Assembly (NCBI GenBank): GCA_033398695.1
Contig: CM065818.1
Location: 37,100,001-37,164,000, forward strand
DNA from: Orobanche coerulescens
Taxonomy: Eukaryota > Streptophyta > Magnoliopsida > Lamiales > Orobanchaceae
Length of the DNA stretch: 64,000 bases
Direction: 5' to 3'
Numbering within the stretch: the first letter of the stretch is position 1; every line of letters starts with the position of its first letter. Below the pieces are notes generated by a model. That model did not search any database and was not told the origin of the DNA. It worked only from the letters and a program-made list of their open reading frames with translations. Position numbers and translations under genes: made by a program. Below, in pieces: positions 1-59,194 of the stretch.

Positions 1-1005
1 TGTTAGTGTATTCAAGTAAGAAAGCTCTGGAGTTTAAATAAAGCAATAGGTAATGCACGCTATGCTGACGACAATGCATGTTACCTGAAGACTTTAGCGC
101 ACGCTACTTATTATGATTTAGCACATGCTACATATTCAAAATACTACCGTTGGTTATTCAACTGTTGGACAATAAAGTCAACAGAGAAATCTCGCTCAAT
201 CTGGAAAGCAAATCTTGACCATCTAGCGCATACAAGGAATGAACTTTAGCGCACGCCAAGTTCAAATTTTATTCGTTGTAAAGAGACGTTAAGAGACAAG
301 TCCGTTTCATGTCAACGTCGGAAGAAAAGATTGTTGACTAAAGCCATTAGCGCATGTTATGCTTAAGGTTTTGCGCACGCTAAACTCCTCAAGTCGGTAA
401 TCGCTATAAGGCACAAAATGCCTATAATACCATCACATTTGGATTGATGGACACACAACTTCAAGCTATCAAGCATACATTCTGAGCTCAAGTTATTATC
501 ATCTTCAAGCAAGTTTATTTTATTAAGTTGTGTACGGAAAAGATACAAAGCACTGTACTTAATTTTCATATCATATACTGTGCCTTTTTCATTGTAATAG
601 AGTGTCGCATCGCTCTTTCACGAGTCGAATCAGGAAGTTCAATCTGGTGTTATTAAGATCAGTGATCTGGTATTGTTAGCATTGAATTCTTAGATTCAAA
701 GCGAGGTTATTCTAGTTCCGATAGAATACTAGAAAAAGTATTTTATCTCGATTGTGCTTGGACCAATAGAAGACAAGCAAGTTGTATCGGTTGTGCCAGG
801 TTCAATAGAAGACGAGGAAAATTGAAGTGTGGTTGCTCCTTAAGCAAATAGAAAAAGGAAACGGAGAGAGGACATAGGTAAGTTGCCGAACCTCTATAAA
901 TCTGGTGTCATTTATTTTCCACATTATTTTTATTTTGTCGAGAAATTTTATTTATCCGCAACACCACTATTCAACTCCCCTTCTAGTGGTATTTTTCACT
1001 CTTCA
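1..1005 (+). repeat. Sirevirus (Ty1/copia) 5' LTR, left end outside window
   Basis: The segment matches the LTR at 24733-25133 plus 40998-41603: the first 50 bases here align with those at 24733. By comparison with the 3' copy, which starts TGTTGAATAAATT at 24345, about 390 bp lie beyond the window edge, giving an LTR of about 1.4 kb. It ends in CA at 1005 and is followed by a tRNA-Met PBS. A TATA-like TATAATAC lies at 423-430. CpG-rich palindromes upstream of it have partly decayed by C-to-T and G-to-A changes, which fits an old methylated copy. Confidence 0.92.
51..130 (+). promoter_or_regulatory. Palindrome tetrad in Sirevirus U3
   Basis: Four 12-bp sites start at 51 (TAATGCACGCTA), 72 (CAATGCATGTTA), 95 (TAGCGCACGCTA) and 119 (TAGCACATGCTA), with spacings of 21, 23 and 24 bp. 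The same four are at 24784, 24805, 24828 and 24852 in the 3' LTR with the same spacings. Further single sites follow near 215, 243, 349 and 369 before the TATA-like box. The role is inferred from position only. Confidence 0.6.
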
Positions 1006-7964: not shown

Positions 7965-10575
7965 TGTAATATCCGCAATTTTCGATTTTCGGTAAATTTC
8001 TTTTTTCGGCCGGAGTCCGTTTTGATGACTCTCTCATGACCGTCTCGTCATTTCGAGAATGATTAATTCTGCACTTTTTGTCATCCGAGTTCGTTTCGGT
8101 GTCGTTTTGTTGAGTTCCGTGTCCTTAATCGACTTTTTCACGTGGGAGTTCGACTTTGTAAAGTCACCATTAATTCTTGGAAACTCCAAAAATTCTGAAT
8201 CTTTACAACATTATAGAGCATCTAGTTAGCTTTCCAATGGTTCAAACGGTGAGTCAATCGGAGTCCGGACGAGAGAGTTATGGTCGTTTTAGCTCACCCG
8301 CTCGTTATTGGCCGATCACTGCCGGCCGAACTCGGCCGTGTCGTCCGACACGGCCCGTGCCGTACTCGTCCGGAAATGCCGGAGTCTCTGCCTCAGGACC
8401 CGACCGTGTCGTCTGGCACGGCCGAGTCGAACTCTTCCGGATAGGCCAGAACCATCGCCAGACGCCCGGCCGTGTTCCAGACACGGCCGAGTAAATCTTA
8501 GTCGCTGTCGGACGGGTCACTATCGGAAGGCCCCTCGCGCCGCGACCGTGTATAGCAGACACGGTCGAGTCACCGCCGGTCAGCTGCGCGCCACGACCGT
8601 GTCGGGCGGACACGGCCGAGTCTCGGCTTTATTTAAGGCACAGCGGCGTTTTCTTGACCATTTTCTCATTCTTTTCTTCCCGTACGCAGCTGTGGGTGTG
8701 TGAATCTTCTAGAGATGTTGTTGGACAATGAATCCATGAAGTTTTGAGGTTCATATCATCAATCATCCGTCCTATAACATCCTCCGATCTACCGAATCAG
8801 GTCAGATTTCCTATAAATCTAGTTTTGGGGAAATTGGGTGTTTTGATTGTTTTCATCCGTTTAATCCGATTTAACTTAGGATTATGATGTATTGATGAAT
8901 ATTTAGATGTATTATATCATTTCCTTTATTATTCCATGGTTGGATCGTATCGATTCGTTGTTTGAGTCGAGTTCTTGACCGACGCCTTGAAGGTGTCCGG
9001 TAAAATGTCTTAGAGGGGTTTTCGGGCGTTCTACGATTATTCTTCCTCGTATGATCGATGATTTATTGATTGTATGATGTTAGGGTCATCTTCCCTGCGA
9101 AGAAACCGTGTTGAACCCTTTCGTTCGTCGTCGTCTTCCGTTTCGATAGCATTGGGCGTTTCGAAGCTTTCCGGTTGAGCCGTGTTCGTCGGGATACTTG
9201 CGTGCCGATTTTGAGGCAAGTACCTCGTCCATACAATTCTTGTTTTGTGAATATGATAATTGGTGATAGTCTTTATATGTTTGTTTGATTGTTTGAAATG
9301 AGTTTTCAAAAGATTCGATTAGCCTGGTTAAAGGCTCTCTTTCAAAACGCGTGTGTTTTGTAATTGTGTGGGTTGTAAGTGACTACGCGGATATTTGGAT
9401 ATGTTTGGTGTTGATGTTGTGCTTGATAATACGTGTGTACGTATATTATCTCTTTTCAGTGCGTTGTGGATTGACGTGGTGTTTTGCTAAGTGTTTGAGA
9501 CCTCTGGGCGAATTGTTTGAATATCCTTGATGTGATATGTTGATTGTGTGAATGTGTGGATATGGTTGAAGGTCTACGGTGACACATGGCACATGATCAT
9601 GTGGTCAGGATGCAACAAGTGATTGATCCAACCGTGAGAGCCTGAGATAATCTACGGTGGCACATGGCATGTGATCATGTGGCCAGGATGCAACAAGCGA
9701 TTGATCCAACCGTGAGATGTGTGTGATTTGTTTCGCTAGCCAGCTCGGGAGGGTCCTTCGAGGCCTCGAGTGGGATGTCGGTGGTAGCGTCCCGGTCCTA
9801 GGCGATGCGCGTGCGTGATTATGTTTCGTTGATTTTACGTCCGTTGAGGACACGTGATGTTGGGCTCTGACCCTGTTAATTGTTGGTGATTTCCTATTTG
9901 CGAAAACAAAACCTTTGGTGTGACCTGTTGATTTTGGAAGGATAAGGATTCGGTAATCCTAAATTGTTTTCTATTAAAACTCTCGATGGCATTTCAAACT
10001 GTTTTATAAATTGTTTCCCTTCAACTTGTGGTCTTTCGGTTTCGGAATGTTTTACCCAAACTCTTGCCTCGGGAAGTACTTTTCATTATGTTTGGATCTT
10101 TGATGATTCCTGATTATTATTGTTCTTGGAACTTGTATTGTATGGCTCGTATTTTTGCACTTGTACTTGCACTAGCAAAACAGTGGAGTTTTGTTAACCC
10201 CCGAGTATTCGGGGGGTGGATGTCTATTTTTGCATTCAGGTTTTGGAGCATGGCACAGGGTCGGCACGAAGGATGATGAAAGATGAACGATACTAATCAC
10301 ACGAGGATCCGTTGATGTCGTATTGGTCTAGTTGTATTTTCTTTTCCGCTGCAGTATTTGTTTCCCGTTGTACGGGTGCGGTTGTATTTTGACCCCTGCG
10401 TGGGCAATGAGTTGTATTCGAGTTGTAAGTATTTATTGAAAGACCAAATCGGTCTACTGAGTCATTTTAGCCTTAAAGGCATGGTTGAGTTGTTATATGT
10501 TGTTACCAGCCTGGTAGATCCTTGAGGAAAGGTTCTACGGCGTGTAATATCCCTGAGCGGATTGGGGGTGTTACA
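7965..10575 (+). repeat. Element A 3' LTR
   Basis: It is colinear with 2497-5108 and ends GTGTTACA directly before the TATAA duplication. Differences from the 5' copy cluster in the hairpin array (for example around 8455-8500) and in short G, C and T runs near 9915-9935 and 10350-10370. Confidence 0.93.
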
Positions 10576-12468: not shown

Positions 12469-12634
12469 TGTAATACCCGAGATCTTTATTCCGGATTCGT
12501 TGGGTTTTCTGGGTTTTACCGAATTGTCATGGTCCTCATCGTAGGAATTTCGTGCCATGTTTGGTTGTGACTTGTTGGGACATGTTTTTGGAGGCATTTC
12601 GGATCACTTTGTGAGTTTTTGAGATTTTGTGGCG

Positions 12635-13012
12635 TAGCGCACGCTAATGCTTGAAGCATAGCGCACGCTACTGCATGGTGTTTAGCGCACGCTACTGGAG
12701 GTGTAGCGCACGCTAAACTGGCAGTTCAGAGGCAGTCCAGTAGCTACTGGACTGGGACTGGAGCTTTGTTAGCGCACGCTAAGGCCGATAGCTAGCGCAC
12801 GCTATCGACTGCTTAGCGCACGCTTCCTCTTCTTTCTAGCGCACGCTACTCGGTAGGTGCAGTTCTGTCCAGGGGCTACTGGACTGGTTTTTGTGACCCG
12901 TTAGCGCACGCTACGGCTTTTGGGCTAGCGCACGCTAACTAGGTTATACGCGGTTTCTCTGGAGCGTTGACCCCGTTAGCGCACGCTAATGAAGGATGAT
13001 TAGCGCACGCTA
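12635..13012 (+). promoter_or_regulatory. Twelve phased TAGCGCACGCTA sites in three tetrads
   Basis: Sites start at 12635, 12659, 12683, 12704 / 12770, 12793, 12814, 12837 / 12902, 12926, 12977, 13001; only 12814 has a changed last base. Spacing inside groups is 21-24 bp, except one of 51. The first sites of the groups are 135 and 132 bp apart. All sites have the central CA on the plus strand. Spacers differ, so the sites are conserved more than the DNA between them. After each group comes a TCCAG/CTGGA dyad (12733-12754, perfect; 12867-12884, imperfect; 13016-13039, around the TATA box). Binding by a factor is inferred. Confidence 0.85.
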
Positions 13013-13015
13013 ATA

Positions 13016-13039
13016 CTGTCCAGTATAAATACTGGACAG
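13016..13039 (+). promoter_or_regulatory. TATA box inside a perfect inverted repeat, element B
   Basis: Arms CTGTCCAGTA (13016-13025) and TACTGGACAG (13030-13039) flank TAAA, so TATAAATA (13024-13031) is the centre of a 24-bp dyad. In the 3' LTR the TATA box is kept (18921-18928, ATATAAAT), but the arms read differently, in the pattern of CAG/CTG changes seen throughout the paired LTRs. Confidence 0.7.
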
Positions 13040-14012
13040 CAGCATTAAGTCGTCATTTCCCACTTTTCTTCATCTCTTCCGACGGGAGTGAGATCCAGAG
13101 GCGAGTAGGACCGATCCTTTTCTTCTAGCTTCATCTTTGAGCGGATTTGTAGATGTTTAACAACATCTAATCGTCTTCTTGGTCCAAATCAAGGTAATCT
13201 CTTGTTAGAACCCTATTTTCTTAAATTTGGGGTTTTTGCTTGGATTTGTGATTCTAGACCGATCTCATCCGATCGGTTATTTGTTCTTGTTTGTCTTGAC
13301 CGTAATCTTCAGATTTTGTTAACCGTTCATCGACTTTTATCGCCCGGATCAACGATTCTTGATTTCTTTGAGAATACTTAGATCCTTGTCGTTTTTAGGA
13401 TCGTTTCGGATTTCGATTAGTGTTATTGAATTGTGGTGATGCTATTTTCGTAGTATTCGTGGGCTGTCGAAGTCTTGTTCGTTTTGGAGGTTCGAAGGTT
13501 GCCCGATCGCGCCCGTTAAATCGTTTCGTTGCTCGTGATATCGAGGCAAGTATCTTGTCCATACGTTTCATGTTTCGTAGGCGTAATTATTGATAAATGA
13601 TTATATACGAAACCCAATGTTTAATGAACGTAAAAAGGGATTGGTATGTTCTCGATAAATGTTGTCTTCCAACGATAATTTATGTACTTCGTGAATATAT
13701 GTGTTCTCGGAATATGTGTGTTGGAGTTGTATGTTGAAAAGATGATATGATCACTTTGAATGAGTCTATTAGACCGTAATCCTTTGGGGGATTACGTAAT
13801 GTTATGTGTACTTGTTCGTTAAGAATGTATTACGTGGGGTATTAGTTGTTACTCCTTTGAAAGGAGGTTGTGATGTTTAAGTATTGCTTGGCTTGATGTT
13901 CTACTCATTGTGATGTGATTCCGAAAGTGATGTGCCTCCGGGTAGGATCGTTGAATCTCGGGATCCATACTTGCTAGTATGGGTCGGGCGTGACCGTAGG
14001 GTTATCCAATCC

Positions 14013-15850: not shown

Positions 15851-15886
15851 TAGCGCGCGCTAACGTGGCATGGCTAGCGCACGCTA
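15851..15886 (+). promoter_or_regulatory. Pair of palindromes in the element B leader
   Basis: TAGCGCGCGCTA (15851-15862, perfectly symmetric) and TAGCGCACGCTA (15875-15886) are 24 bp apart, outside the LTR and upstream of gag. The rest of the 15086-16623 leader shows no gene. Confidence 0.6.
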
Positions 15887-18378: not shown

Positions 18379-20976
18379 TGTAATACCCGAGATCTTTATT
18401 CCGGATTCGTTGGGTTTTCTGGGTTTTACCGAATTGTCATGGTCCTCATCGTAGGAATTTCGTGCCATGTTTGGTTGTGACTTGTTGGGACATGTTTTTG
18501 GAGGCATTTCGGATCACTTTGTGAGTTTTTGAGATTTTGTGGCGTAGCGCACGCTAATGCTTGAAGCATAGCGCACGCTACTGCATGGTGTTTAGCGCAC
18601 GCTCTCGGAGGTGTAGCGCACGCTAAGCTGGCGATTGAGGCGATCCGGTAGCTACCGGATCGACTGAAGCTTTGTTAGCGCACGCTAAGGCCGATAGCTA
18701 GCGCACGCTATCGGTCGCTTAGCGCACGCTTCCTCTTCTTTCTAGCGCACGCTACTCGGTAGGTGCGATTACGTCCGAGCTCTTTGGGTGGTTTTTATGA
18801 CCCGTTAGCGCACGCTACGGCTTTTAGGCTAGCGCACGCTAACTAGGTTATACGCGGTTTCTGGAGCGTTGACCCGTTAGCGCACGCTAATGAAGGTTGA
18901 TTAGCGCACGCTAATCATCGATATAAATCTTGGACAATGACGATTAAGTCGTCATTTCCCACTTTTCTTCATCTCTTAACGGAGTGAGATCCAGGCGTGT
19001 AGGACCGATCCTTTTCTTCTAGCTTCATCTTTGAGCGGATTTGTAGATGTTTAACAACATCTAATCGTTTTCTTGGTCCAAATCAAGGTAATCTCTTGTT
19101 AGAACCCTATTTTCTTAAATTTGGGGTTTTTGCTTGGATTTGTGATTCTAGACCGATCTCATCCGATCGGTTATTTGTTCTTGTTTGTCTTGACCGTAAT
19201 CTTGATTTTGTTAACCGTTCATCGACTTTTATCGCCGGATCAACGATTCTTGATTTCTTTGAGAATACTTAGATCCTTGTCGTTTTAGGATCGTTTGATT
19301 TCGATTAGTGTTATTGAATTGTGGTGATGCTATTTTCGTAGTATTCGTGGGTGTCAAGTCTTGATCGTTTTGGAGGTTCGAAGGTTGCCCGATCGCGCCC
19401 GTTAAATCGTTTCGTTGCTCGTGATATCGAGGCAAGTATCTTGTCCATACGTTTCATGTTTCGTAGGCGTAATTATTGATAAATGATTATATACGAAACC
19501 CAATGTTTAATGAACGTAAAAAGGGATTGGTATGTTCTCGATAAATGTTGTCTTCCAACGATAATTTATGTACTTCGTGAATATATGTGTTCTCGGAATA
19601 TGTGTGTTGGAGTTGTATGTTGAAAAGATGATATGATCACTTTGAATGAGTCTATTAGACCGTAATCCTTTGGCGGGGATTACGTAATGTTATGTGTACT
19701 TGTTCGTTAAGAATGTATTACGTGGGGTATTAGTTGTTACTCCTTTGAAAGGAGGTTGTGATGTTTAAGTATTGCTTGGCTTGATGTTCTACTCATTGTG
19801 ATGTGATTGCTGAAAGTGATGTGCCTCCGGGTAGGATCGTTGAATCTCCGGGATCCATACTTGCTAGTATGGGTCGGGCGTGACCGTAGGGTTATCCAAT
19901 CCGGGTATGTCTTGCGGGGACTCCGAGGTTCGGGGCTTGCTAGCCCGATGCCGAGATAACTTGTGGGGTTATCATCGGGTATGTCTTGCGGGGACTCCGA
20001 GGTTCGTGGCTTGTTAGCCCGATGCCGGGATAACTTATGGTTGTGGTATGGAATGGTTCTGTGGTTGTGGCCACGAGGACATGTGATTTTTGGTATGGCT
20101 TCCTGTTGGGTTATTCACTCAGGTATGTTCTACGGGAGCATCTGAGGTTCGTGGCTTGTTAGCACGGGACGCGAATAATCCTTAGGAACATGTGTTATGT
20201 GATTCGGGTTGTGGACCCTGTGGCTTATGATTTGGGTCTTGGACCCCGTGTGTTGTGAATTGGGTTGTGAAACCGCGTTTTATTATTGGAATCGTATTTT
20301 GGAAAGATGATTTTGGGCCGTGTCCCCAAGTGTTTTCGAAAGACTTGAGAATTCCTTATTTCCAAATGTTTTCAAACTCCCGAGACCGTAAAATATTTTG
20401 TATGAGACACATGGTTCTTTTCCTACCTTTTATAAATCAAACTGTTTTGATTAAGTGATTTATCTTGGGAAATATATTCAAGATTTTATATTCTTGAAGC
20501 ACGTTGTGTATGGCTTGTACTTTTAGTTTTATACTTGCACTAGCAAAACAGTGGAGTTTTGCTAACCCCCGAGTATTCGGGGGGTGGATGTCTGTATTGC
20601 GTCCAGGTACTTGCAGGTAGCTGGGGAGCGAATCACAGGATCGATACGAAGGATGATGGGAAACGAAGATACTAATCACGTGAAGACCAATTGTAGAGTA
20701 TTTGGTAGAGTCATGTTGGTTATCCCTCCGATGTGTTGTTACCCCGATTTATGGGAGTGTTATTGTATTCTAGCCCCTGCGTGGGTATGTGTTCTGGGCA
20801 AGTATCATGTATGTAATGTTGTGTGTGTTGTGATATAAGACCTAATCGGTCTAACGGTCCTTTACATAGCCATGTCGACATGTGAAGTGATGCATTGTTT
20901 TGTATTTAGCCTGGTAGATCCTCGCGGAGAGGGTCTGCGGCGCTGTAATATTCCCGAATGGTTTGGGGGTGTTACA
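18379..20976 (+). repeat. Element B 3' LTR
   Basis: It repeats the 5' LTR, with palindrome sites starting at 18545, 18569, 18593, 18614, 18676, 18699, 18720, 18743, 18806, 18830, 18878 and 18902, again twelve. The site at 18593 ends CTC instead of CTA. Dyads between the groups are altered at their CAG and CTG triplets. It ends GTGTTACA before the GGAGA duplication. Confidence 0.93.
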
Positions 20977-20981: not shown

Positions 20982-22309
20982 CAGGTACCCAATAAGAAAT
21001 AAGTCTCATCTAGTTGCACAAGGTTATAATCAAGAATAATGTCTTGATTATGAATAAAGTTTCGCTCCCGTGGCCCGTCTTGAAGCCATCCGTTTGCTTT
21101 GTGCTTTTGCCTCTCATAAGAAAATCAAGCTATATCAAATGGATGTGAAAAGTGCATTTCTAAATGGCTTTATTCAAGAAGAAGTGTTTATCAAGGAGCC
21201 TCCAGTATTTAATGATTATCGATTTCCAGAGCATGTCTTCAAACTCAACAAAGCTCTCTATGGGCTGAAGCAAGCACCACGAGCCTGGTACGATCGTTTA
21301 AGTCAATTTCTTATTGCAAATGACTACAAAAGAGGTAAAATCTACAACACCTTATTTGTGAAAATTTTGAATAATGATATGTTTATTTGCCAAATATATG
21401 TAGACGATATTATTTTCGGTGCCACTACCGAATCTCTCTGTCAAGATTTTTCAAATTTAATGAAGGGAAAATTCGAAACGAGTATGATGGGAGAATTAAC
21501 CTTCTTCTTCGGTATTCAAATTAAAATATGTGAAGATGGGATTTTCATTCAAACCAAATATACTCACGACCTCATCAAAACGTTCAAAATGGAGAGTAGC
21601 AAAGCAATCTCAACACCGATGTCATCTACATTAAAATTGGACAAAGACAAAAATAGAAAACCCATTGATCAAAGGCTTTATCGAGGTATGATTGGATCTC
21701 TACTCTATTTGAGAGGATCTAGACCAGATATAGTTTTTGCTACATGTTTATGTGCTAGAGTTTAGTCGAACCCTAAGGAACCACATTTGACTGCTTGCAA
21801 ACGTATCGTTCGCTATTTAAATGGAACTATTGGTCTTGGACTATGGTATCCATCATGTTTTGGACTTTAATTTAATTGCATACAGTGATGCTGATTTTGG
21901 CGGCTGTAAAATAGACAAGAAAAGCAGTACATGGGGAAGTAAAAAGCAGACCAGTGTAGCAATGTCTACCGCTGAAGCCGAGTATGTGGCCGTAGGTAGC
22001 GCTTGTGCGCAAGTGCTGTGGATCAAAAATCAACTCCGAGATTACGGTACTTATTTTGAAAATACTCATATTTTATGTGATAATACTAGTGCTATTAATC
22101 TCAGTAAAAATCTTGTTTTGCACAGTAGAACTAAATATATTGATATTAGACATCATTTTTTTCGCGATCATGTCCAAAAGAAAGATATCTGTTTAATTTT
22201 TGTCGGCACAAAAGATCAATTAGCCGATATTTTTACCAAACCCTTACCTGAGGAAGCCTTTAATACTATCAGATTACAACTCGGTATGGGACATCTCGAT
22301 AAATTTTGA
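20982..22309 (+). pseudogene. pol: Sirevirus pol part 2: reverse transcriptase and RNase H
   Basis: This continues the RT cut at 12468. HLVAQGYNQE is followed by two stops (near 21037 and 21055), then PVARLEAIRLLCAF from 21070 with QMDVKSAFLNG, ALYGLKQAPRAWYDRL and the catalytic YVDDIIFG (Asp pair at 21403-21408). The RT frame ends with a stop at 21763. RNase H follows in a different frame (21821-22309) with YSDADFGG, STAEAEYVA, CDNTSAI and HSRTKYIDIRHHFFRDH, ending with the copia C-terminal signature DQLADIFTKPLP. The order PR-INT-RT-RH defines Ty1/copia. All motifs remain, but the gene is inactive. Confidence 0.92.
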
Positions 22310-22358
22310 AATTCATTTGCCTTACGAAAAATCATTTCATGAGATATTTTCCTTACCC

Positions 22359-22580
22359 TAGCACGCACTAGCATTGTATACTTAACCCGCGCTATCCATC
22401 CTCACCTGAAATTTCACGAGCCCGATAGCGCATGCTACTAGCCTTTCTTTGCGTACGCTAATAAAAGTCCTTTAAAATTTCCTTATGCTACTGGATAGTC
22501 CAGTAGTCTATTCGATTATTAATAACGTACGTTATACCTTGTATAGCACATGCTAACGAGCCAGCTTTTCAATTATAAAT
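22359..22580 (+). promoter_or_regulatory. Putative internal promoter of the Sirevirus extra ORF
   Basis: Between RNase H and the extra ORF lie three pairs of 12-bp sites: 22359 TAGCACGCACTA and 22383 TAACCCGCGCTA; 22426 TAGCGCATGCTA and 22449 TTGCGTACGCTA; 22523 TAACGTACGTTA and 22544 TAGCACATGCTA. Pair spacing is 24, 23 and 21 bp. The dyad CTACTGGA-TAG-TCCAGTAG sits at 22488-22506. A TATA-like TATAAAT at 22574 is followed about 110 bp later by the first ATG of the ORF. This copies the layout of the LTR arrays. Promoter activity is inferred. Confidence 0.6.
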
Positions 22581-22686
22581 CAAAAATCCCCTTTTCATTC
22601 TTAAGAACCCTAACCTCACTGCCGACCAAAAACTCTCAAAAATCTTCATCCATATCTGAAATTTCACCAAAAACCTTTATCTAATC

Positions 22687-23954
22687 ATGGCAAGTGGATC
22701 CAGAGTCCCAATAAGAAATAATATAAAAGTTCCAAGCATACCCGCGAGCTCGAATTCAACCCAAACCGATTCATCTCCTCCGCGGCGTACAAAGTTTTCT
22801 CAGAAATTCTTCCTCAAGTGCACTTAACAGACTGTTACTACTTTACTTTCAGAAGTCTAGAGCGAGCTAAGGTATAAATTCGAGAATTTTTCTCGACTTT
22901 GGGTATTAACCATTTCGTTGAATGTAAAGAGCCAATCTTTCCTGGTTTCGTTTGTGAATTAGATGCTAATTTGCATGTTGGAGAGAGTGAGGGATCCCCG
23001 TCATTGGTTCTTAACAGTATTGTTGGTGGAATGGTTATAAAAGTTTCATCGGAAATTCTCAATGAGCTGTTTGGTTTATCTATGGACGGATATGCGTGTT
23101 CTGGGAAATCGGTTGCTGAAGAATCTGACTTATCTGATCTCGAAGTAACTGAGTTCTTGAGTTCAAATGAGGTTATTGAAATAACCGACGATGTCTTCGA
23201 GAACAATGACTTTGAAATTCATATTCAGTTGGTTTTGGTTGCTATCACCAAATGCTTGATGCCTAAAGTGAACACTCAACACAAGCTAGTGGGAATCGAT
23301 ATGCATGTCGTCTACCGGGTTTTAAATGATGATAAAGTGGACTTTGCGGCGATCGTGTCCAGCTGGATGGAAGTAAAGGTAGACACGTTTCGCTCAAAAC
23401 ACTACGTGTCTAGGTCTCGAAAAGCAAGGGTGCCTTTTGGCTCAATCCTTACGGTCCTTTTCAGGCGCTTTAATATGGACTTATCGGGAGAGGCATCGGT
23501 TCCGGTGTCTCGGGGACATGAAGTTTGTGACGTATCCCTCAAAGCGATGCACTATTTCGATATGATCAATCGAGGATGGGTCCTATTTTCATCTCTCCGG
23601 GAGGATGATCAAGTTCCAAAGGGAACGCATGTGCCGACTCTGGCCGAGCGTATCTTTCGAAGAGGACCAGAAACTCTTCACGAAATTCAAATTGGGTCGT
23701 TTGTTCATCACCCGAAGGTCAAAGGAAAAAGGAAAGTGATTGTTGAAGAAAATGAAGAAAATGATCTCGTACCCCGGATGCGTAGTATCGAAACTACGCA
23801 AATCGAGATTCGTGATGACGTCAGATCTCTACGTTCCAAAGTCCAAAGAGATACCCAAGAAATTCATTCGGTTAAGACTCTTTTGGAAGACTTTATTCGA
23901 TTCTCCAATTCGTCTTTCCCGTTTCCTACTTCTCACTCCGACCAGGCCCCTTAG
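22687..23954 (+). pseudogene. Sirevirus 3' extra ORF (putative plant transposon protein domain)
   Basis: A start at 22687 gives MASGSRVPIRNN and a Ser/Pro-rich tail, then a frameshift and a stop near 22874. The open part 22899-23954 (351 residues) reads GINHFVECKEPIFPGFVCEL, IVGGMVIKVSSEILNELFGL, an acidic patch, PKVNTQHKLVGIDMHVVYRV, VPFGSILTVLFRRFNMDLSG and a C-terminal heptad region around residues 285-335. The order and spacing resemble the 'putative plant transposon protein' domain often found in plant retroelements; I cannot run the profile search. Sireviruses often carry an ORF in this place, sometimes called env-like, but I see no signal peptide or membrane segment. Its function is unknown. 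Confidence 0.65.
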
Positions 23955-24188: not shown

Positions 24189-24344
24189 AGGGGGAGTACC
24201 TTTTCTCTTATGTCAAAAAGGGGGAGAAAACACTCAAAAATTGCATATACTAACAAAATCGAACAAAAGAACTTTGATTCGAAATTTCTTTACAGTTTTG
24301 CAGGTATTTATTAAATGTTTTGGCATCATCAAAAAGGGTGAGAT
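24189..24344 (+). other. Multiple polypurine tracts before the Sirevirus 3' LTR
   Basis: AGGGGGAG (24189-24196), AAAAAGGGGGAG (24215-24226) and CATCATCAAAAAGGGTGAGAT (ending 24344 at the LTR) are repeated PPT-like runs. Repeated PPTs with this wording are a published hallmark of Sireviruses and support that placement. The stretch 23955-24188 shows no gene. Confidence 0.8.
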
Positions 24345-25133
24345 TGTTGAATAAATTATTTTGATGATGAACGATTTCAAAACATTTAATGAAATTTAAC
24401 TAAACGACACGAATCATTGAAGATAAAACTCTACGTCTAGCGCACGCTACAGATATGTAGCAGCGCACGCTATCGAAAAGTTACCTGTAGTCAGAAAGTC
24501 ACCTGCAGAGCACTTGAAAACTCACCCGATATTTTAGCGCACACAAGCTTCAAATATCAGCGCATGCTAGTTGATCAAATTAGCGCACACTATCGGTTTC
24601 ATGGTTAAACAAGACAGTAAGGACAGTGAGGTCTGGACTAAGTAAAGCAACAAGTAGTGCACGCTGAGAAGGAAATTTGCGCACGCTATGAAGAGGCGTA
24701 ACGCACGCTAAGGGACAAATTACGCATGCTACCTGTTAGTGTATTCGAATCAGAAAGCTCTGGAGTTTAAATAAAGCAACAGGTAATGCACGCTATGCTG
24801 AAACCAACGCACACTACCTGAAGACTTTAGCGCATGCTACATATTATGGTTTAGCGCACGCTACATATTCAAAATACTACCGTTGATTATTCAACCATTG
24901 GACAACAAAGTCAACACATAAATCTCGCTCAATCTGGAAAGCAAATACTGACCATCTAGCTATTGCAAGGAATGAACTTTAGCATACGCTATGTTCAAAT
25001 TTTATTCGTTGGAAAGATACATAAAGAGACAAGTCCGTTTCGTGTCAACGTCAGAAGAAAAGCTTGTTGACTAAAGCCGTTAGCGCACGCAACGCTTAAG
25101 GTTTAGCGGACACTAAACTCCTCAAGTCAGTAA
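24345..25133 (+). repeat. Sirevirus 3' LTR, left part
   Basis: It begins TGTTGAATAAATT after the PPT and carries the full U3 palindrome set. It is broken at 25133 by element C; the rest of the LTR is at 40998-41603. Together the two parts are about 1.4 kb. Confidence 0.92.
24438..24863 (+). promoter_or_regulatory. Phased palindrome array in Sirevirus 3' LTR U3
   Basis: Sites start at 24438 and 24461 (pair); 24535, 24558, 24581 (triplet); 24655, 24677, 24699, 24720 (tetrad); 24784, 24805, 24828, 24852 (tetrad). Spacing inside groups is 21-24 bp. The best copies are TAGCGCACGCTA. Variants such as TAGCGCATGCTA, TAGCGCACACTA and TAACGCACGCTA differ mostly by CpG transitions, as expected for decay of methylated sites. 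More degenerate sites lie near 24983, 25080 and 25103. Confidence 0.75.
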
Positions 25134-25443
25134 TGTAATATCCGGAATTTTTACTACTGATGTTTAATATTATTTTATCCGAGTTATATTGTACAGCGTG
25201 GAATCTGTACAGTAGAGATAAAATAAATAAAGGACTGAGATATCAGTATCGGTATAATTGTCGTATTTGGTCGACAATTACATTTGAGGATATTGTGTAT
25301 CAGGTTGTCGTACTTTTGATATTGGGTATATCGTATGATGATATTATTGGATTCAATGTTTGTGTTCAGTGTGTCTTATGTTCGCTTTTGGTATGTCGAG
25401 ACGTTGGACAAGAACTGCGGAAAATGGCTAAGTATAGCCTTAT

Positions 25444-25957
25444 TAGCGCACGCTGATATTCATGCATAACGCACGCTATCGTGCAGGATTAGCGCACGCT
25501 ACGTTTATAGGTTAGCGTACGCTAAGTGCGATGCGAATCGGAAGGAATCTGCGTGTGGACCCGGCCGCTTTCGGCGCACGTTACGTAAGTCAACGGTTGT
25601 TGTCCTGAAGTATTAGCGCACGCTAAAATATTAGGCTTAGCGCACGCTAACTATGTATCGGTCAACAAGGAATCTTATCCTTGCCAGATGTTGTCGGAAT
25701 ATGGGGGCGAGTGGTAGGTGAACACTGTAGCAAGTCAACTTCGGATAGCGCACGCTAAGATAAATGACTTGCGTACGCTAAGCAGGATGTTTTACGTACG
25801 ATAATGCATGGGCATTACGTACGTAAGGTAGTTCTGAAGCAAGGCGGTAGCCTGCAGGCCGATAGCGCACGCTAACAAAGTCAGTTAGCGCACGCTAAGG
25901 CTAGCGCACGCTAAACATAAGGGTTTAGCGCACGCTAGTAAGGTATTCTATATAAAG
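25444..25957 (+). promoter_or_regulatory. Palindrome tetrads and TATA box, element C LTR 1
   Basis: Sites start at 25444, 25467, 25490, 25513 (spacing 23, 23, 23); 25614 and 25638; 25746, 25769, 25792, 25815 (23, 23, 23); 25863, 25886, 25902, 25926. Most are TAGCGCACGCTA, but the third group drifts to TTGCGTACGCTA, TTACGTACGATA and TTACGTACGTAA, which bridges the wording of elements B and D. TATATAAAG follows at 25949. LTR 2 (TATA at 32046) and LTR 3 (TATA at 38130) repeat the layout, with some sites shortened. Confidence 0.82.
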
Positions 25958-26668
25958 GGACAAACGAGTGTCATGAAACATTTCGTCCATTTCTTTCCTT
26001 TCACCCGATAGAGACAACCTTGTGAGAACATTTGGAGTTCCTAAACACTGAGGTATGATCCTCTTTAACAAGATTAAAGATGGAAATCATGGAGTAAAGC
26101 TTTGTTCTTGAAATCATTGGTGATTCTTGGAAATCAATCCTTTCCTTCAAAAAAGGTAATTACTCTTCACTTTGAGATTTCGTTTTGGATTGTATATGAT
26201 GTTCTTGAGTTGATGATTATCATATAAACAAGTTGATGAGCATGACAACGAGTTGGATTACCGTACTAAGTTAGTGTTGTTATCAATATATGAGTATTGA
26301 TATGTTTCGTATGGTTTTGGATGGAATTCAAGATATATATTGATGTAATTCCCTTCTTCAATTCGGATTTTTGATGTTTTGTCGTTGGTTACTTCGTATG
26401 GTAACGATTATGGTGATCTTCTTGTGATTCTTGAAGTTATATGAATTGTATGTCGAAGAACATGATGAATAAGGATTTTTAGATGTTAGAACACATCGGA
26501 TTTTATCATTTTATGGATCATGAACGTGAATTTGGATAATTCGTGTTCTTGAAGAGCTATTAAATTATATGTCATGATTGTTATGAAATCCTTAATCTCG
26601 AGATGAGTTGATCATTGTCATGATGGAAGTGTTAGACGATGCTTGAAATGCATGACACTGTACAGAAT

Positions 26669-26750
26669 TAGCGCACGCTACGCTTACTGGCTAGCGCGCG
26701 CTAACGGGGGCAAATTAGCGCACGCTACGTTAGGTGATTAACGTGCGCTA
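26669..26750 (+). promoter_or_regulatory. Downstream palindrome tetrad, element C LTR 1
   Basis: TAGCGCACGCTA (26669), TAGCGCGCGCTA (26692), TAGCGCACGCTA (26716) and TAACGTGCGCTA (26739) are spaced 23, 24 and 23 bp. They lie some 700 bp downstream of the TATA box, so inside the presumed transcript. Copies are near 32762-32845 and 38846-38928. Confidence 0.75.
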
Positions 26751-27547
26751 AGTAGGCGACAGGCAAGATATTTTGTGTTTTGATTAGGAATTCGTGATGG
26801 TTTGACTTGGTTGGTTACATTGTGTTTATTCGTGGTTGAGTTGAACCGTTGAGTTCGACTGGATAGTATTGTCAGTTGTTGATTGTTATCGGATATGTGT
26901 TATTTGATTTCTTCGAGAGGTTGAGATTGCTGATCGGTGATTATAACCGGATATTGCGGTCGTGTTCGAGTATGTCCATTGTATTGCTTTTGATCGGGCC
27001 GAGGAGCTCGTAGATAAAGCGGTGTGTTGAGCAGCTTCGTGGTATCGGTATCGAGGCAAGTTATTACTTGCTCAGTTATAATATTTAATGAATGGTTTCA
27101 GTTTCATTTCGTTTATAATGCATATAGCGATGATTATTATTGTGAACTCTGGGTATTCAGATCGCATATCGTTCTTTCGATTCTGGGAGATAAATCATAA
27201 TGTATATGCTTATCTCAGTTATTGGTATGTTCGAGTATCAAGGTTACATTATGGTAAAGACGAGGATATGAGTATCTATTGTTTATTGTTCGTTTGGATC
27301 GCCGAGCATTGAGGATAATCGTCGGTGACGATTGGACATCGAGATTTCTCCCGAAGGACTCGGGGCAAGTATCTTATATCGATTCAATTAGAGTTAGTGA
27401 TTTGATCATGCGTATTATCATTCATGTTGTCGAACATGAGGTCGTCTTAATTGATTTGTCATATTGTCGTTCATGTTGCGTTGTTCATGATGATGAACAT
27501 ATTGTTTTGCATATGTGTATGCATATTGTGTTGTTTATGTTGTGTTG

Positions 27548-27840
27548 ATCCGATGGGATCGCGCGATCTATGCTGAGGGCGCTGGATCGGATGTCCACCT
27601 CGTGTTGGTCCGACGGGATCATCTTGGGATCTATGCTGAGGGCGCTGGATCATTGGACGGGTTTTTCCACCTCGTGTTGGTCCGACGGGATCATCTTGGG
27701 ATCTATCTTTGAGGCGCTGGATCGTTGGATTACCCAGTATTGTATTATTGTTGTGCATATGTATATTGTTGGTTATCCACCTCGTGTTGATCTTGTAGGA
27801 TCATCTTGGGATCTATGCTGAGGGCGCTGGATCACGGGAT
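27548..27840 (+). repeat. Imperfect tandem repeats in element C LTR 1
   Basis: About four units share CACCTCGTGTTG, GGGATCATCTTGGGATCTAT and GGCGCTGGATC, with unit lengths of about 60-110 bp because spacers vary. Counterparts are at about 33636-33925 and 39730-40015. Confidence 0.75.
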
Positions 27841-28801
27841 TTCCATTGAGTATACATAGTTGTTATTGTTTTTGAGCATATTGACGTTGCCATATGAGTA
27901 TGCATTTGTAGGTCTTGTGTTAGGACCTTGTCCGTATTACATTGATCTGATCTCGGATTAGACTGATATGATTATCGTGGCACATCATATCTCGAGGTAT
28001 GTTCCGTATTTTTCTTTGGTCTTTGTCTTTGATGGACGATCGGTTATCGTCTTGGGATTTGATGATATTATTCGATGGATCGTATTGGTCAGAAATGGTA
28101 GATTTCCGTATCGTGAGTTGGTTACGATAGTTTGAGGATCTTGAGTATTGTTCGAGGTACAATACAGATTTTATGTTTGAGTTTATTGGTTAATCGAGTA
28201 CAAGATGTGAAATGTGAAAATGGTTATCTTGATGAGAATTACTTGAGTAAGTAAAGTTATGGCGGTAAGATTACATTGGTCGTATTCTTATTCTGTATTC
28301 TCGTTGGTATGTATTATTGATGTGATGTGATTGATATCATTGTTGGATATTATGGCTGACCCCGTTGTGGGATTTCTTTTTAGGTCTTTGGAGTATCGAG
28401 CTTGTAGCGGTCGTGAAGAGATGAGCTTCCGCGGGATCTTGGCTAGGACATGTTGTGTGCATTGAGTTTCTTGATTGGTTCTTGTATTCATTTGCTAGAA
28501 TATCTTTTTGGTTGGTCTTTTCCGCCGCGTGAGTATTTTGAATAGACCTTTTGGTATCAGTAACGAGGTTGCTTTGGGAGTCGTTTTCTAAACTTTTGAG
28601 TGTCTATTTGTTTGGCCTCGCGATTTCAAATGAGTTTTTACGACGGTTTTGATAAATGAATTTTATAAGTCTTTGTGAATTTTTAAAGATAGTACCGTCG
28701 TTGGCCTCTTGGGCATTTGTAAATGTTTGCGAAAATTTCTTTTAGCCTTGTGGGTTCCATCTCGGGGCCACAGTAATATTCCGGTTAAACTGGGGTGTTA
28801 C

Positions 28802-31233
28802 GAATATGGTATCGGAGCTTAGGTTGAGAAAGCCTAGTCATTTGGGTCGAGTTGGGTCGTGTTTTGTCGCGTCATTCGAGTTGTCGATTGACAAATATTA
28901 GAGCCGTGAGTTTTTGTTGTTCACTCGGGCTTATGTGTTATGTGATTTACCGATATAAATCTTGGGCTTGTTATAACTTTTCCAAATGGTGTTAACGAGA
29001 TTCTCTGGAATGAGATGTATTGTGTTCTTGAGTCGAACTGAGTTTGCCAACCTGTGTTTTGAAAATGTCCGTGTCGAGTATTTTCTAGAGCCGAGACATG
29101 TGCGATATCACGGGAATCGTCGGCTTCACGATCTGTAAGTATTTGGATTTTTGAATTTCATTGAGATTTATTGCCGTTCTAAGTTGATACGTTTTGAGAT
29201 TCAGTAGATATTATGCGTTACAGTATAAGGTGACAGAGTTGGGACAGGATTGATGATCTTGAGAAGTTATGATTTTGGAAATCAGTATGTTGGTTAGATT
29301 TTGGAACGGAATTGTGCATCTGGGAGAAATACTGTGCATGGTTGAGAAGAACATATAGCATGTTAATTCATTTTGAGTTATATGAACTGCTTTTGATCAT
29401 TTGAAAATGATACCTTTCAAAATGAATGTTTTACGGATGTTTTACGGAAAATGATTTTTTGGGTCGAGACCCAATCGATTTTGAAATGGTTTTATAACTC
29501 AGGACTTGGGGTCCGTAAAGGGTTTTCTACTTTTTAAACTTCTTGTAATGCGAAACAAAATACTTTGCCGAGACCCTAATGTTTCAAAAGACTTTCCTGT
29601 TTTCTAAAACTCCCGAGATCTGTAAAACACTTTACCAATCGTTTACTTATGTTATTTCCGCCTTTCGAGGCTTTGGTTTACTTGTTCAAATGGAACCTCT
29701 CGGGAAGTCTTTCGCCGTGTTTGATTTGCTTGATTTGTTCCAACGTTTTGTCATATCATATTTGAGGTGATCCAGGATGGGTAAATGGTTGACGATACGA
29801 GTCATGGGTGGAAAAGGAGTTTTTATCGGAGTCTATATATTGAGGTTTTGGAACTCGGTCATGTGGTTTCCGTTGGAATGTCAGTGGATTGTGACGAGCC
29901 GAATTGGTATACAGGAGTATGGTTGTGGTCAATCATTTGCATGATTCCATTTTATTTAATCGCGTATATTCGAAAAGAATTTTTATCGAGAACTTGGCAC
30001 CAGCGAGCTGATTGAATTTTTAAAAATTGATTTCGTGGTCTTACGAAAATTTATGTTTTGAGTTTTCAAACTCTTGAAAGAATTTTCGAAAATTTGTCTT
30101 TTGACAAGAATATATGATTTCAAACTGGTTTTGAAAATGTGATTGATATACATACGCATTTAGTGCATAGTGCATATCATATTGATGGTACGATGGAAAA
30201 GGAATTCGAACTTCAGTATGTTAGTTTGATTATACGGTGATGATCGGTTGAGTTATCAGATAAGAGAAATATGTTGCGTGTTGTAGATTCATGCACATAA
30301 TATTATTTTGGAAACTTGGGATTTTGTGAAACCGGAACATAGGTGCTATGTGATTCCATTGGTATGATAGTAGCGCGATTTTACCTTAGTGATTCTGGAA
30401 TGATTTCCTTGTAAGCGTAGATTTGGGGATGGTGACCCCATACTGGTTGTTTTGGATATTGAGTGGTCGTTTCCACTCCGTGTATGATTGGGCATGTTCG
30501 TCAGTTTGTGATTGGTTGTTCGTATGCCGAGGAAAATGTTCGCCAGTTGGGTATGTTTATTGAGATCTACGGTGCGTGATTGATTTGTCGTTTTGAGAAT
30601 GTTATTCTTTCGTATATCTGTTTCTGTGGGTCTGTGTTGATCGTGTTGGAGTTTACCGTGTGAAGGTATTCTCGATTTTCGTTGATCGTTCATTGGTAAT
30701 ATTGGAGTTTATCACGATAATGATATTCCCGATTGTGTTTTGACCTCTGGTTGGTCAGATTGGAAATTTATCATGTCGATGATAAATTCGATTGATTGTT
30801 GATCACTGCTGGTGATCATTTGAGCGTTCGGATTTTGTGTTGATGTTTCGGAATTCGTGTTGTTGTTTTTGGGCAATTGTTTTGCAGATGTATTGTGTAT
30901 TATTCGTCTTATCGGAACTGAGACTTGATTATGTAATCAGGCAGACAGGATTTGATTCGGGCAGATTGTTTCATCCGAAGATGATATATTTTGTTGAGAC
31001 TCAGGGAATTGTGATCGTAAGCGTATTGAGACTGTACAGTGAGATTGCTGGCTAGTATCTCCGGAGATCGTCGACCTGCGTATTTGGAAGTATGCTCTTT
31101 TGGATATTCGGTAATGATGATGATAAATCGTTGTCGTGATGGTTTTGGGATATTTTGAGTTGAATGGTATGTTTGTTCGTTTTATGATGGATTGCAAGTT
31201 TCGAGGACAAAACTTATTTTAAGGGGTGTAGAA
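28802..31233 (+). other. Element C interior 1 (non-coding)
   Basis: The PBS TGGTATCGGAGC is at 28807-28818. The start MPR (ATGCCGAGG) at about 30523 resembles the first codons of the A and B gags, but no gag core or zinc knuckle follows. Short open frames do not resemble a known protein. The dyad AAGTTTCG...CAAAACTT (31196-31215) and the PPT AAGGGGTGTAGAA (31221-31233) close it. Confidence 0.8.
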
Positions 31234-34200
31234 TGTAATATCCGGAATTTCTACTACTGATGTTTAATATTATTTTATCCGAGTTATATTGTACAGCGTG
31301 GAATCTGTACAGTAGAGATAAAATAAATAAAGGACTGAGATATCAGTATCGGTATAATTGTCGTATTTGGTCGACAATTACATTTGAGGATATTGTGTAT
31401 CAGGTTGTCGTACTTTTGATATTGGGTATATCGTATGATGATATTATTGGATTCAATGTTTGTGTTCAGTGTGTCTTATGTTCGCTTTTGGTATGTCGAG
31501 ACGTTGGACAAGAACTGCGGAAAATGGCTAAGTATAGCCTTATTAGCGCACGCTGATATTCATGCATAACGCACGCTATCGCGTGCGGGATTAGCGCCGC
31601 TACGTTTATAGGTTAGCGTCGCTAAGTGCGCATGGATCGGAAGGAATCTGCGTGTGGACCATTGCTTTCGGCGCACGTTCGGTAAGTCAGCGGTTGTTGT
31701 CACGAAGTATTAGCGCACGCTAAAATATTAGGCTTAGCGCACGCTAACTATGTATCGATCAACAAGGAATCTTATCCTTGCGGAATCTTTGTCGGAATAT
31801 GGGGCGAGTGGTAGGAGAACACTGTAGCAAGTCAACTTCCGAAAGCGCACGCTAAGATAAATCACTTGCGTACGCTAAGCAGGATGTTTTACGAACGAAA
31901 ATGCATGGTCATTACGTACGAAAGGGAGTATACGAAGCAAGGCGGTAGCCTGCAGGCGATAGCGCACGCTAACAAAGTCAGTTAGCGCACGCTAAGGCTA
32001 GCGCACGCTAAACATAAGGGTTTAGCGCACGCTAGTAAGGTATTCTATATAAAGGGACAAACGGGTGTCATGAAACATTTCGTCCATTTCTTTCCTTTCA
32101 CCCGATAGAGACAACCTTGTGAGAACATTTGGAGTTCCTAAACACCGAGGGATGATCCTCTTTAACAAGATTAAAGATGGAAATCATGGAGTAAAGCTTT
32201 GTTCTTGAAATCATTGGTGATTCTTGAAATCAATCCTTTCCTTCAAAAAGGTAATTACTCTTCACTTTGAGATTTCGTTTTGGATTGTATATGATGTTCT
32301 TGAGTTGATGATTATCATATAAACAAGTTGATGAGCATGACAACGAGTTGGATTACCGTACTAAGTTAGTGTTGTTATCAATATATGAGTATTGATATGT
32401 TTCGTATGGTTTTGGATGGAATTCAAGATATATGTTGATGTAATTCCCTTCTTCAATTCGGATTTTTGATGTTTTGTCGTTGGTTACTTCGTATGGTAAC
32501 GATTATGGTGATGCTCTTGTGATTCTTGAAGTTATATGAATTGTATGTCGAAGAACATGATGAATAAGGATTTTTAGATGTTAGAACACATCGGATTTTA
32601 TCATTTATGGATCATGAACGTGAATTTGGATAATTCGTGTTCTTGAAGAGCTATTAAATTATATGTCATGATTGTTATGAAATCCTTAATCTCGAGATGA
32701 GTTGATCATTGTCATGATGGAAGTGTTAGACGATGCTTGAAATGCATGCCAGCATGCGGCATTAGCGCACGCTACGCTTCTTGGCTAGCTGGCGCGCTAA
32801 CGGGGCAACTTAGCGCACGCTACGTTAGGTGATTAACGTGCGCTAAGTAGGCGACGATCTGATATTTTTGTGTTTTGATTAGGAATTCGTGATGGTTTGA
32901 CTTGGTTGGTTACATTGTGTTTATTCGAGGTTGTGTTGAACCGTTGAGTTCGATTAGTTAGTATTGTCGATTGTTGATTGTTATCGGATATGTGTTATTT
33001 GATTTCTTGATAGGTTGAGATTGCGATCGGTGATTATAACCGGATATTGCGGTCGTGTTCGAGTATGTCCATTGTATTGCTTTTGATCGGGTGAGGAGCT
33101 CGTAGATAAAGCGGTGTGTTCGGCGGACTTCGTGGTATCGGTATCGAGGCAACTTATTTCTTGCTCCCTTAAAAAATTTAATCACGGGTTTCAGGTTCAA
33201 TTCGTTTAAAATGCATATAGCGATGATTATTATTGTGAACTCGGGTATTCGGATCGCATATCGTTCTTTTGATTACGGGAGATAAATCATAATGTATATG
33301 CTTATCTCGATTATTGGTATGTTCGAGTATCAAGGTTATTATGGTAAAGACGAGGATATGAGTATCTATTGTTTATTGTTCGTTTGGATCGCCGAGCATT
33401 GAGGATAATCGTCGGTGACGATTGGACATCGAGATTTCTCCCGAAGGACTCGGGGCAAGTATCTTATATCGATTCAATTAGAGTTAGTGATTTGATCATG
33501 CGTATTATCATTCATGTTGTCGAACATGAGGTCGTCTTAATTGATTTGTCATATTGTCGTTCATGTTGCGTTGTTCATGATGATGAACATATTGTTTTGC
33601 ATATGTGTATGCATATTGTGTTGTTTATGTTGTGTTGATCCGATGGGATCGCGCGATCTATCTTGAGGCGCTGGATCGGATGTCCACCTCGTGTTGGTCC
33701 GACGGGATCATCTTGGGATCTATCTTGAGGGCGCTGGATCATTGGGCCAGGTTTTCCACCTCGTGTTGGTCCGACGGATCATCTTGGGATCTATCTTTGG
33801 GCGCTGGATCGTTGGATTACCCAGTATTGTGTTATTGTTGTGCATATGTATATTGTTGGTTATCCACCTCGTGTTGATCTTGTAGGATCATCTTGGGATC
33901 TATCTTGAGGCGATTTGGATCATGGGATTTCCATTGAGTATACATAGTTGTTATTGTTTTTGAGCATATTGACGTTGTCATATGAGTATGCATTTGTAGG
34001 TCTTGTGTTAGGACCTTGTCCGTATTACATTGATCTGATCTCGGATTAGACTGATATGATTATCGTGGCACATCATATCTCGAGGTATGTTCCGTATTTT
34101 TCTTTGGTCTTTGTCTTTGATGGACGATCGGTTATCGTCTTGGGATTTGATGATATTATTCGATAGATCGTATTGGTCAGAAATGGTAGATTTCCGTATC

Positions 34201-34901
34201 GTGAGTTGGTTACGATAGTTTGAGGATCTTGAGTATTGTTCGAGGTACAATACAGATTTTATGTTTGAGTTTATTGGTTAATCGAGTACAAGATGTGAAA
34301 TGTGAAAATGGTTATCTTGATGAGAATTACTTGAGTAAGTAAAGTTATGGCGGTAAGATTACATTGGTCGTATTCTTATTCTGTATTCTCGTTGGTATGT
34401 ATTATTGATGTGATGTGATTGATATCATTGTTGGATATTATGGCTGACCCCGTTGTGGGATTTCTTTTTAGGTCTTTGGAGTATCGAGCTTGTAGCGGTC
34501 ATGAAGAGATGAGCTTCCCGCAGGATACTGGCTAGGACATGTTGTGTGCATTGAGTTTATTGATTGTTTCTTGTTTTCATATGCTAGAATATCTTTTTGG
34601 TTGGTCTTTTCCGCCGCGTGCGTGAGTATTTTGAATTGACCTTTTGGTATCAGTAACGAGGTTGCTTTGGGAGTCGTTTTCTAAACTTTTGAGTGTCATT
34701 TGTTTGGCCTCGCGATTTCAAATGAGTTTTTGACGGTTTTGATAAATGGATTTTATAAGTCTTTGTGAATTTTTAAAGATAGTACCGTCGTTGGCCTCTT
34801 GGGCATTTGTAAATGTTTGCGAAAATTTCTTTTAGCCTTGTGGGTTCCATCTCGGGGCCCACGACGCTGTAATATTTCCGGTTAAATCTGGGGGTGTTAC
34901 A
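31234..34901 (+). repeat. Element C LTR 2 (shared middle LTR)
   Basis: It is flanked on the left by a PPT and on the right by a PBS (34907-34918), so it acts as 3' LTR of interior 1 and 5' LTR of interior 2. Several palindrome sites are shorter than in LTR 1 (for example AGCGCCGCTA near 31592). CAG/CTG triplets differ from the other copies. Confidence 0.92.
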
Positions 34902-40300: not shown

Positions 40301-40992
40301 ACGATAGTTTGAGGATCTTGAGTATTGTTCGAGGTACAATACAGATTTTATGTTTGAGTTTATTGGTTAATCGAGTACAAGATGTGAAATGTGAAAATGG
40401 TTATCTTGATGAGAATTACTTGAGTAAGTAAAGTTATGGCGGTAAGATTACATTGGTCGTATTCTTATTCTGTATTCTCGTTGGTATGTATTATTGATGT
40501 GATGTGATTGATATCATTGTTGGATATTATGGCTGACCCCGTTGTGGGATTTCTTTTTAGGTCTTTGGAGTATCGAGCTTGTAGCGGTCGTGAAGAGATG
40601 AGCTTCCCGCAGGATACTGGCTAGGACATGTTGTGTGCATTGAGTTTCTTGATTGGTTCTTGTATTCCGCTGCTAGAATATCTTTTTGGTTGGTCTTTTC
40701 CCGCCGCGTGAGTATTTTGAATTGACCTTTTGGTATCTGGTAACTGAGGTTGCTTTGGGAGTCGTTTTCTAAACTTTTGAGTGTCGGCTGTTTGGCCTCG
40801 CGATTTCAAATGAGTTTTTACGACGGTTTTTGATAAATGAATTTTATAAGTCTTTGTGAATTTTTAAAGATAGTACCGTCGTTGGCCTCTTGGGCATTTG
40901 TAAATGTTTGCGAAAATTTCTTTTAGCCTTGTGGGTTCCATCTCGGGGCCCACGGCGCTGTAATATTTCCGGTTAAATCTGGGGGTGTTACA
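37324..40992 (+). repeat. Element C LTR 3
   Basis: The third copy ends GTGTTACA followed by AGTAA, which joins back to the Sirevirus LTR. The first 60 bp show extra changes (TATCAAGAATTT; ATTATGCAGCGTGGAATGCATGCAG) compared with LTRs 1 and 2. Confidence 0.92.
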
Positions 40993-51140: not shown

Positions 51141-51537
51141 TTATATAACCTGACAAACTCATTACGTACGCTATACACCAAACATAACGTACATAAGCGC
51201 CATTACGTATGCTATACCAACAACTTAGCGTACATAATGCTAGTCCAGAACTAATTGACCAAAAGCATCAAGACCTTAACGTATGTAAACAATAACAATT
51301 TACGTGCGTTAACAAGCTGCATGGATAACGTACGTAAGGAGCACACCCTAACGTACGTAAAGATCCGTTGACTGCAATAGTGAGATCGGATCGAAAGATT
51401 CCTGCCCTACCAGCCGAAAGTTGACATCGAGGAAGGTTCCTACCACCGACCACGCATTACGTACGTAACCATACAGGGCTAACGCACGTAATACTCAGCC
51501 CATAGCGTACGTAATGCTACACATATAGCGTATGTTA
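51141..51537 (-). promoter_or_regulatory. Palindrome tetrads and TATA box, element D LTR
   Basis: In plus coordinates sites start at 51457, 51480, 51503, 51526 (spacing 23, 23, 23); 51277, 51300, 51326, 51349 (23, 26, 23); 51162, 51185, 51203, 51226 (23, 18, 23). Examples are TTACGTACGTAA, TAACGTACGTAA, TAGCGTACGTAA and TTACGTGCGTTA. On the minus strand they lie upstream of TTATATAA (51141-51148). Copies are at 56093-56492 and 62418-62820, with C-to-T and G-to-A decay in the last. Confidence 0.82.
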
Positions 51538-59189: not shown

Positions 59190-59194
59190 TCTTC

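Follow-up and report, generated by a model that had tools for sequence, protein, structure and literature searches.

The window analysed here, a stretch of 64,000 nucleotides from Orobanche coerulescens (contig CM065818.1, positions 37,100,001 to 37,164,000), is a nest of plant long terminal repeat (LTR) retrotransposons. The outermost is a Ty1/copia element, as given by its RVT_2 reverse transcriptase (21070–21762, 153.7 bits), in which pol ends at 22309, an extra open reading frame (ORF) starts at 22687 and the 3′ LTR begins at about 24345. This element bears the hallmarks published for Sireviruses (PMC2829016). The last of its polypurine tracts, the variant AGGGTGAG at 24335, lies 10 bp ahead of the TGTTG that starts the 3′ LTR and is flanked by an inverted repeat with exact pieces of 13 and 11 bp, and a C-rich integrase signal was recognized by eye near the 3′ end of each LTR (CAACCCCC in the 3′ and CAACTCCCC in the 5′ LTR). 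Elements A and B are nested in the Sirevirus and a tandem element, C, is inserted in its 3′ LTR, each with 5-bp target-site duplications (TATAA, GGAGA, and AGTAA, respectively). Family E is separate (48405–63024, minus strand).

The linker between pol and the extra ORF carries an array of short sites (Table 1). With a site defined as having at most three mismatches to TAGCGCACGCTA or its reverse complement, six were found, at 22359, 22383, 22426, 22449, 22523, and 22544 (3, 3, 1, 2, 3, and 2 mismatches), which confirms the three pairs spaced 24, 23, and 21 bp that the first-pass annotation had placed before the ORF. That annotation took them for the same 12-bp site; they are degenerate instead, none being exact. 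Across 5000 dinucleotide-shuffled versions of the linker, sites averaged 0.25 and peaked at 3, so that six were never reached, and neither were three pairs at 20–25 bp (maximum one pair). Among the 1024 arm-CA-arm palindromes, TAGCG was the top arm in the linker, with six sites against four for the runner-up, and the observed/expected CpG ratio was 1.41 in the array vs 0.85 in pol. A perfect palindrome, ATAACGTACGTTAT, starts at 22522 and encloses the first unit of the third pair. The dyad that stands among the units is indeed common to element B, as had been claimed: TCCAGTAGCTACTGGA is found at 12736–12751 in its 5′ LTR, with a diverged version in the 3′ LTR. After the units come the TATA-like box, which was also found as described, and the ATG at 22687. 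Plain read-through from pol was rejected on account of the stops in the linker.

The extra ORF is env-like and of the Transposase_32 type. The ATG looks genuine, because relative P0002 starts with the same eight residues (MASGSRVP), and to that extent the ORF first reported at 22687 fits the family. It is not open, however: a stop follows after 46 codons, the family reading resumes in another frame, and a further in-frame stop precedes an open piece of 351 amino acids. We found 31 relatives (best identity 65%), among them proteins of about 420 amino acids, all from Orobanche gracilis, O. minor, and O. hederae; further searches returned 29 by profile (best 7996 candidates scored) and 12 with relative P0028 as query. 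The relative search relies on shared 5-residue words, which distant relatives in other taxa would escape. Three relatives scored 56.3, 54.2, and 61 bits for PF20167 (Transposase_32), over the Pfam cut-off of 45, while the open piece in the window scored 34.4 bits, under it.

The family protein has a basic N-terminus, with 5–10 lysines or arginines in the first 40 residues of the 22 proteins checked, and a predicted long C-terminal helix that is likely a coiled coil. By hydropathy only, with no dedicated predictor, an envelope transmembrane segment was not seen: the 19-residue maximum was at most 1.82 in the 22 of the 31 proteins with at least 390 amino acids. For two predicted models of the family, the top VIA-align match was VANC21, and the predicted fold may be like the crystallised, DNA-bound part of that protein. 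A PDB sequence search with the family profile gave best E values of 0.058 and 0.07, mostly to helical or ribosomal chains, and VANC21 was absent from the matches. DUF1985 and DUF287 were not among the 25 listed of 29 Pfam families matched by 19 family members at E up to 10, with HMMER filters that drop weak matches. Two double-stranded RNA (dsRNA)-binding domains returned by Foldseek against the PDB (E 5.6 and 6.6) were taken as noise. Against viral models, Foldseek gave 201 matches up to E 10 and none at 0.001, and in viral contigs no exact motif pair occurred and none of the 29 stretches fitting the peptide pattern encoded a relative.

Arrays of the same kind stand elsewhere in the window, composed of TAGCGCACGCTA-like units in the Sirevirus, B, and C and of TTACGTACGTAA-like units in E. 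In 10 of the 10 array copies checked, from five contexts (Sirevirus 5′ LTR, linker, B, C, and E), a TATA-like box starts 9–41 bp past the last unit, where 0.061 is expected at a random place with the wide pattern used; the Sirevirus 3′ LTR array was left out because element C parts it from the TATA region. The spacing between units was exactly 23 in 25 of 55 cases and 21–24 in 42 (spacings up to 60 bp, eight regions). The unit is near-palindromic with an oriented centre (49 CA vs 2 TG); thus either recognition probably involves something other than a simple symmetric dimer bound to a single unit, or the arrays expanded via direct duplication. Its sequence varies between A, B/C, and E: element A, whose LTR end is related to that of B (74% identity over 681 columns), carries a palindrome of another type, ACCGTGTC..GACACGGT, ahead of TATTTAA. 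The label of gag-only gypsy elements suits A and E, with Retrotrans_gag just under the Pfam cut-off; three internal ORF pieces of B and C showed no element domain. Paired degenerate WTARCGYRCGYTAW units, a TATA box, and a Transposase_32-type ATG thus follow each other in the linker, in a layout shared with the Sirevirus 5′ LTR and three other families.

Table 1. Features of the Sirevirus linker and of the arrays in the window
Feature	Position	Strand	Details
Linker from pol to extra ORF	22310..22686	+	377 bp, 7 stops per frame
Motif pair 1	22359..22394	+	spacing 24; 3 and 3 mismatches
Motif pair 2	22426..22460	+	spacing 23; 1 and 2 mismatches
Dyad CTACTGGA-tag-TCCAGTAG	22488..22506	+	both arms recur in element B 5′ LTR
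Motif pair 3	22523..22555	+	spacing 21; 3 and 2 mismatches
TATAAA	22574..22579	+	first base 19 bp past last linker unit
Extra ORF (env-like, Transposase_32-type), broken	22687..23954	+	start matches family MASGSRVP; open piece 22899–23954
Sirevirus polypurine tracts	24189..24342	+	exact AGGGGGAG at 24189 and 24219; variant AGGGTGAG at 24335
Sirevirus 5′ LTR array	51..382	+	7 units; LTR cut by window start
Sirevirus 3′ LTR array	24438..25115	+	16 units; LTR split by element C
Gypsy-type element B, 5′ LTR array	12635..13012	+	12 units; TATAAA at 13024
Element B, 3′ LTR array	18545..18913	+	12 units; TATAAA at 18922
Tandem gypsy-type element C, first LTR array	25444..25937	+	TATATAAA at 25949
Element E array, TTACGTACGTAA-like units	51162..51537	-	12 units; TATATAA first base 15 bp past last unit

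Several details of B and C were also noted. Element C (25132–40992) comprises three LTRs and two internal regions, and its LTR has a second cluster of four units (spacings 23, 24, and 23) at 26669–26750, about 740 bp 3′ of the main array. In B, an extra unit pair lies in the internal region (15851–15886), the TATA box of the 5′ LTR is centred in the dyad CTGTCCAGTATAAATACTGGACAG with 11-bp arms (13016–13039), and 12733–12754 and the matching part of the 3′ LTR each hold a perfect 22-bp palindrome with paired arm changes (CAGTCCAGTAGCTACTGGACTG, CGATCCGGTAGCTACCGGATCG).

With the units masked, the linker gave no alignment above the shuffled maximum against seven LTR stretches, with one tie, to E (25 vs 25). 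Because the masked alignments stay at or below that maximum, the likeness between linker and LTRs is the motif itself; unmasked, the linker was just over the null against B (30 against 29) and C (28 against 27). Most cross-family LTR pairs were likewise at or below the null once masked, with the exception of C/A (35 vs 28) and B/C (23 vs 22), and the remainder of the Sirevirus 3′ LTR tied with A (25 vs 25).

In B, and in part in C, the units appear protected from change; in E and the Sirevirus they do not (p values uncorrected for several tests). Between the LTRs of B, differences numbered 4/153 in units and 31/254 in spacers (Fisher p 0.00077; 6 of 406 shifts as low). The copies of C gave 5/178 and 33/351 for C1/C2 (p 0.0042; 50/528 shifts), 2/176 and 20/347 for C1/C3 (p 0.011; 22/522 shifts), and 6/143 and 28/381 for C2/C3, which was not significant (p 0.23).

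A separate observation concerns the LTR pairs of B (12610–13070 vs 18520–18970) and A (2820–3220 vs 8288–8690), which mostly differ by 0–5% per 150-bp window and by 8–9% over the promoter array, despite intact target-site duplications. By eye, the differences in B seem clustered around CAG/CTG. Recombination during copying or a methylation-linked base-calling error are possible causes. Elsewhere, the window holds a Mutator-like transposase fragment (PF10551, 44631–45110) and two adjoining 462-bp copies that are 99.1% identical (46665–47588).

The linker array belongs to the palindromic repeated-motif clusters known upstream of Sirevirus ENV genes. We consider it fairly probable that the interval 22359–22580 serves the extra ORF as cis-regulatory array and core promoter, at which a factor recognizing paired sites drives transcription, and that the ORF product or a paralogue is possibly that factor. 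One kind of sequence-specific DNA-binding factor would sit on paired units about 23 bp apart, the long C-terminal helix being one means by which the two sites could be bridged. Once bound, it would hold the region accessible or unmethylated, and transcription would then start from the TATA box downstream of the array. Least certain is that this factor would be the ORF's own product or a paralogue. The proposal of the first-pass annotation, a separate promoter for an ORF that encodes, or is controlled by, the reader of the array, is supported in part. Self-regulation also fits the Sireviruses described by Bousios (2010; PMC2829016), where nine motif-bearing elements have both ENV and linker motifs and four have neither.

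Several points weigh against this interpretation. The same study describes motifs in the LTRs of the four ENV-less Sireviruses and six ENV-bearing ones without boxes, and these cases speak against the ORF product as the general or sole reader (PMC2829016). In E, the units are more changed than the spacers, not significantly, and the Sirevirus LTR pair shows the same opposite direction (17/96 in units vs 31/302 in spacers). Such a reversal would be expected from CpG decay in old copies.

It is quite possible that a host transcription factor reads the arrays, rather than the ORF product, and that unrelated elements converged on its site. The unit might suit plant factors of BRRE, SPL, or NAC sites. 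B, C, and E all carry arrays, and no such ORF was seen in their scanned pieces. A 12-bp unit that is rich in CpG and present up to 16 times at a fixed spacing of about 23 bp seems, on the other hand, unlike common plant promoters. The motif arrays of ENV-less Sireviruses also favour a host factor, as does maize, where no motif outnumbers the same palindrome in the structured regions of either Copia elements or Helitrons (PMC10760457). Yet the unit differs between Sirevirus families (PMC2829016), as it does between A, B/C, and E here, which suits element-specific readers better.

Expression of the ORF by splicing from genomic RNA, with another role for the array such as an enhancer for the 3′ LTR, is unlikely. 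In other plant elements, env-like ORFs have been predicted to be expressed by splicing (PMC2829016), and the linker has one acceptor-like string, at 22347. This string precedes the array, so a spliced leader would hold the whole of it, which counts against splicing, and the layout of TATA box and ATG fits an internal promoter better. Quite unlikely, too, is a role of the palindromic clusters as RNA hairpins or single-strand hairpins, serving as sources or targets of small RNAs, rather than as protein sites. The RNA fold of the linker is stronger than that of its shuffles (z −3.45, 0/200), more so than for part of the B array (z −2.07, 7/200 as good), and maize Sireviruses have an excess of small RNAs mapping to their palindromic clusters (PMC10760457, citing Bousios 2016); palindromes, however, fold by construction, a hairpin needs neither the strand bias of the centre nor fixed spacing nor a downstream TATA box, and a source of silencing is a cost that gives no reason for unit retention. 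A leftover LTR of another element as the origin of the array is very improbable: the motif, the TCCAGTAG dyad, and the slight unmasked excess and masked tie are outweighed by the masked alignments and by nine published Sireviruses with clusters at the same place (PMC2829016).

Returning to the ORF product as reader, we put forward as a tentative and rather doubtful extension, by analogy with VANDAL elements, that Orobanche Sireviruses possess a VANC-like anti-silencing system of their own. What is called the "envelope" ORF would encode a DNA-binding protein of the nucleus with a VANC fold, able to recognize paired WTARCGYRCGYTAW units in the LTRs and before its own gene, in a positive loop, and non-autonomous gypsy-type elements would keep the same arrays to be opened by it. 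If true, such self-regulation would explain the co-occurrence of ENV and linker motif clusters that Bousios (2010) saw among 13 motif-bearing Sireviruses, and arrays common to unrelated elements would mean that retrotransposons exploit another element's factor. No role has been proven for plant env-like genes, and the 2010 study left open what reads the Sirevirus motif boxes (PMC2829016). A VANC-like fold of Transposase_32 would link both puzzles to a known anti-silencing mechanism and offer a direct DNA-binding test.

In the literature searched, we did not find the sharing of a unit by copia and gypsy-type elements or a possible VANC fold of Transposase_32. Among the matches listed for three motif strings, none was about plant mobile elements by title or abstract. 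For Transposase_32/PF20167 only PMC11728184 looked relevant, and print beyond the searched collection is possible. A VANC structure paper was not found among the matches listed for VANC21; PMC12859917 mentions unpublished VANC-DNA results. The idea that LTR elements could use their extra proteins to modulate their own methylation, as VANC does, has been raised before (PMC12844716); the relevant passages name no protein family and give neither a motif array nor a structural match of the kind found here.

The array adds to the known examples of its kind and has an unusual core. For Sireviruses, palindromic repeated motifs were reported by Bousios (2010; PMC2829016) both within the LTRs and ahead of ENV, together with the proposal of an internal promoter. 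Like these, the motif here is palindromic, rich in CpG, and repeated many times, both ahead of the TATA box in the LTR and ahead of the extra gene in the linker. The published core is typically CGG-CCG (Tnd-1 being without it), whereas here it is GCG-CGC, within the unit TAGCG-CA-CGCTA, and while the motifs were called Sirevirus-specific, the present unit is also in gypsy-type elements. Mobile elements often have cis-regulatory regions made up of palindromic repeats in arrays, and a Sirevirus-type palindrome occurs outside Sireviruses in maize Helitrons (PMC10760457). The additional ORF (aORF) of sunflower Athila shares with ours the Pfam family PF20167, the 3′ position, and a predicted nuclear signal, in a Ty3/gypsy rather than a Ty1/copia host; the dsRNA-binding likeness claimed in that report is for Tekay aORF proteins, not the Transposase_32 family (PMC11728184). 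In the VANDAL/VANC system (Hosaka 2017; PMC5735166), short motifs have likewise multiplied in fast-changing non-coding DNA, and the unrelated element AT9TSD1 carries VANC6 motifs and is likewise hypomethylated. Common to both systems are an accessory protein of a plant mobile element and repeated short motifs in variable non-coding DNA, and the predicted fold of the ORF family may resemble that of DNA-bound VANC21. VANDAL is a Mutator-like DNA transposon read through the 9-base YAGTATTAY, whereas here an LTR retrotransposon carries a near-palindromic 12-bp unit.
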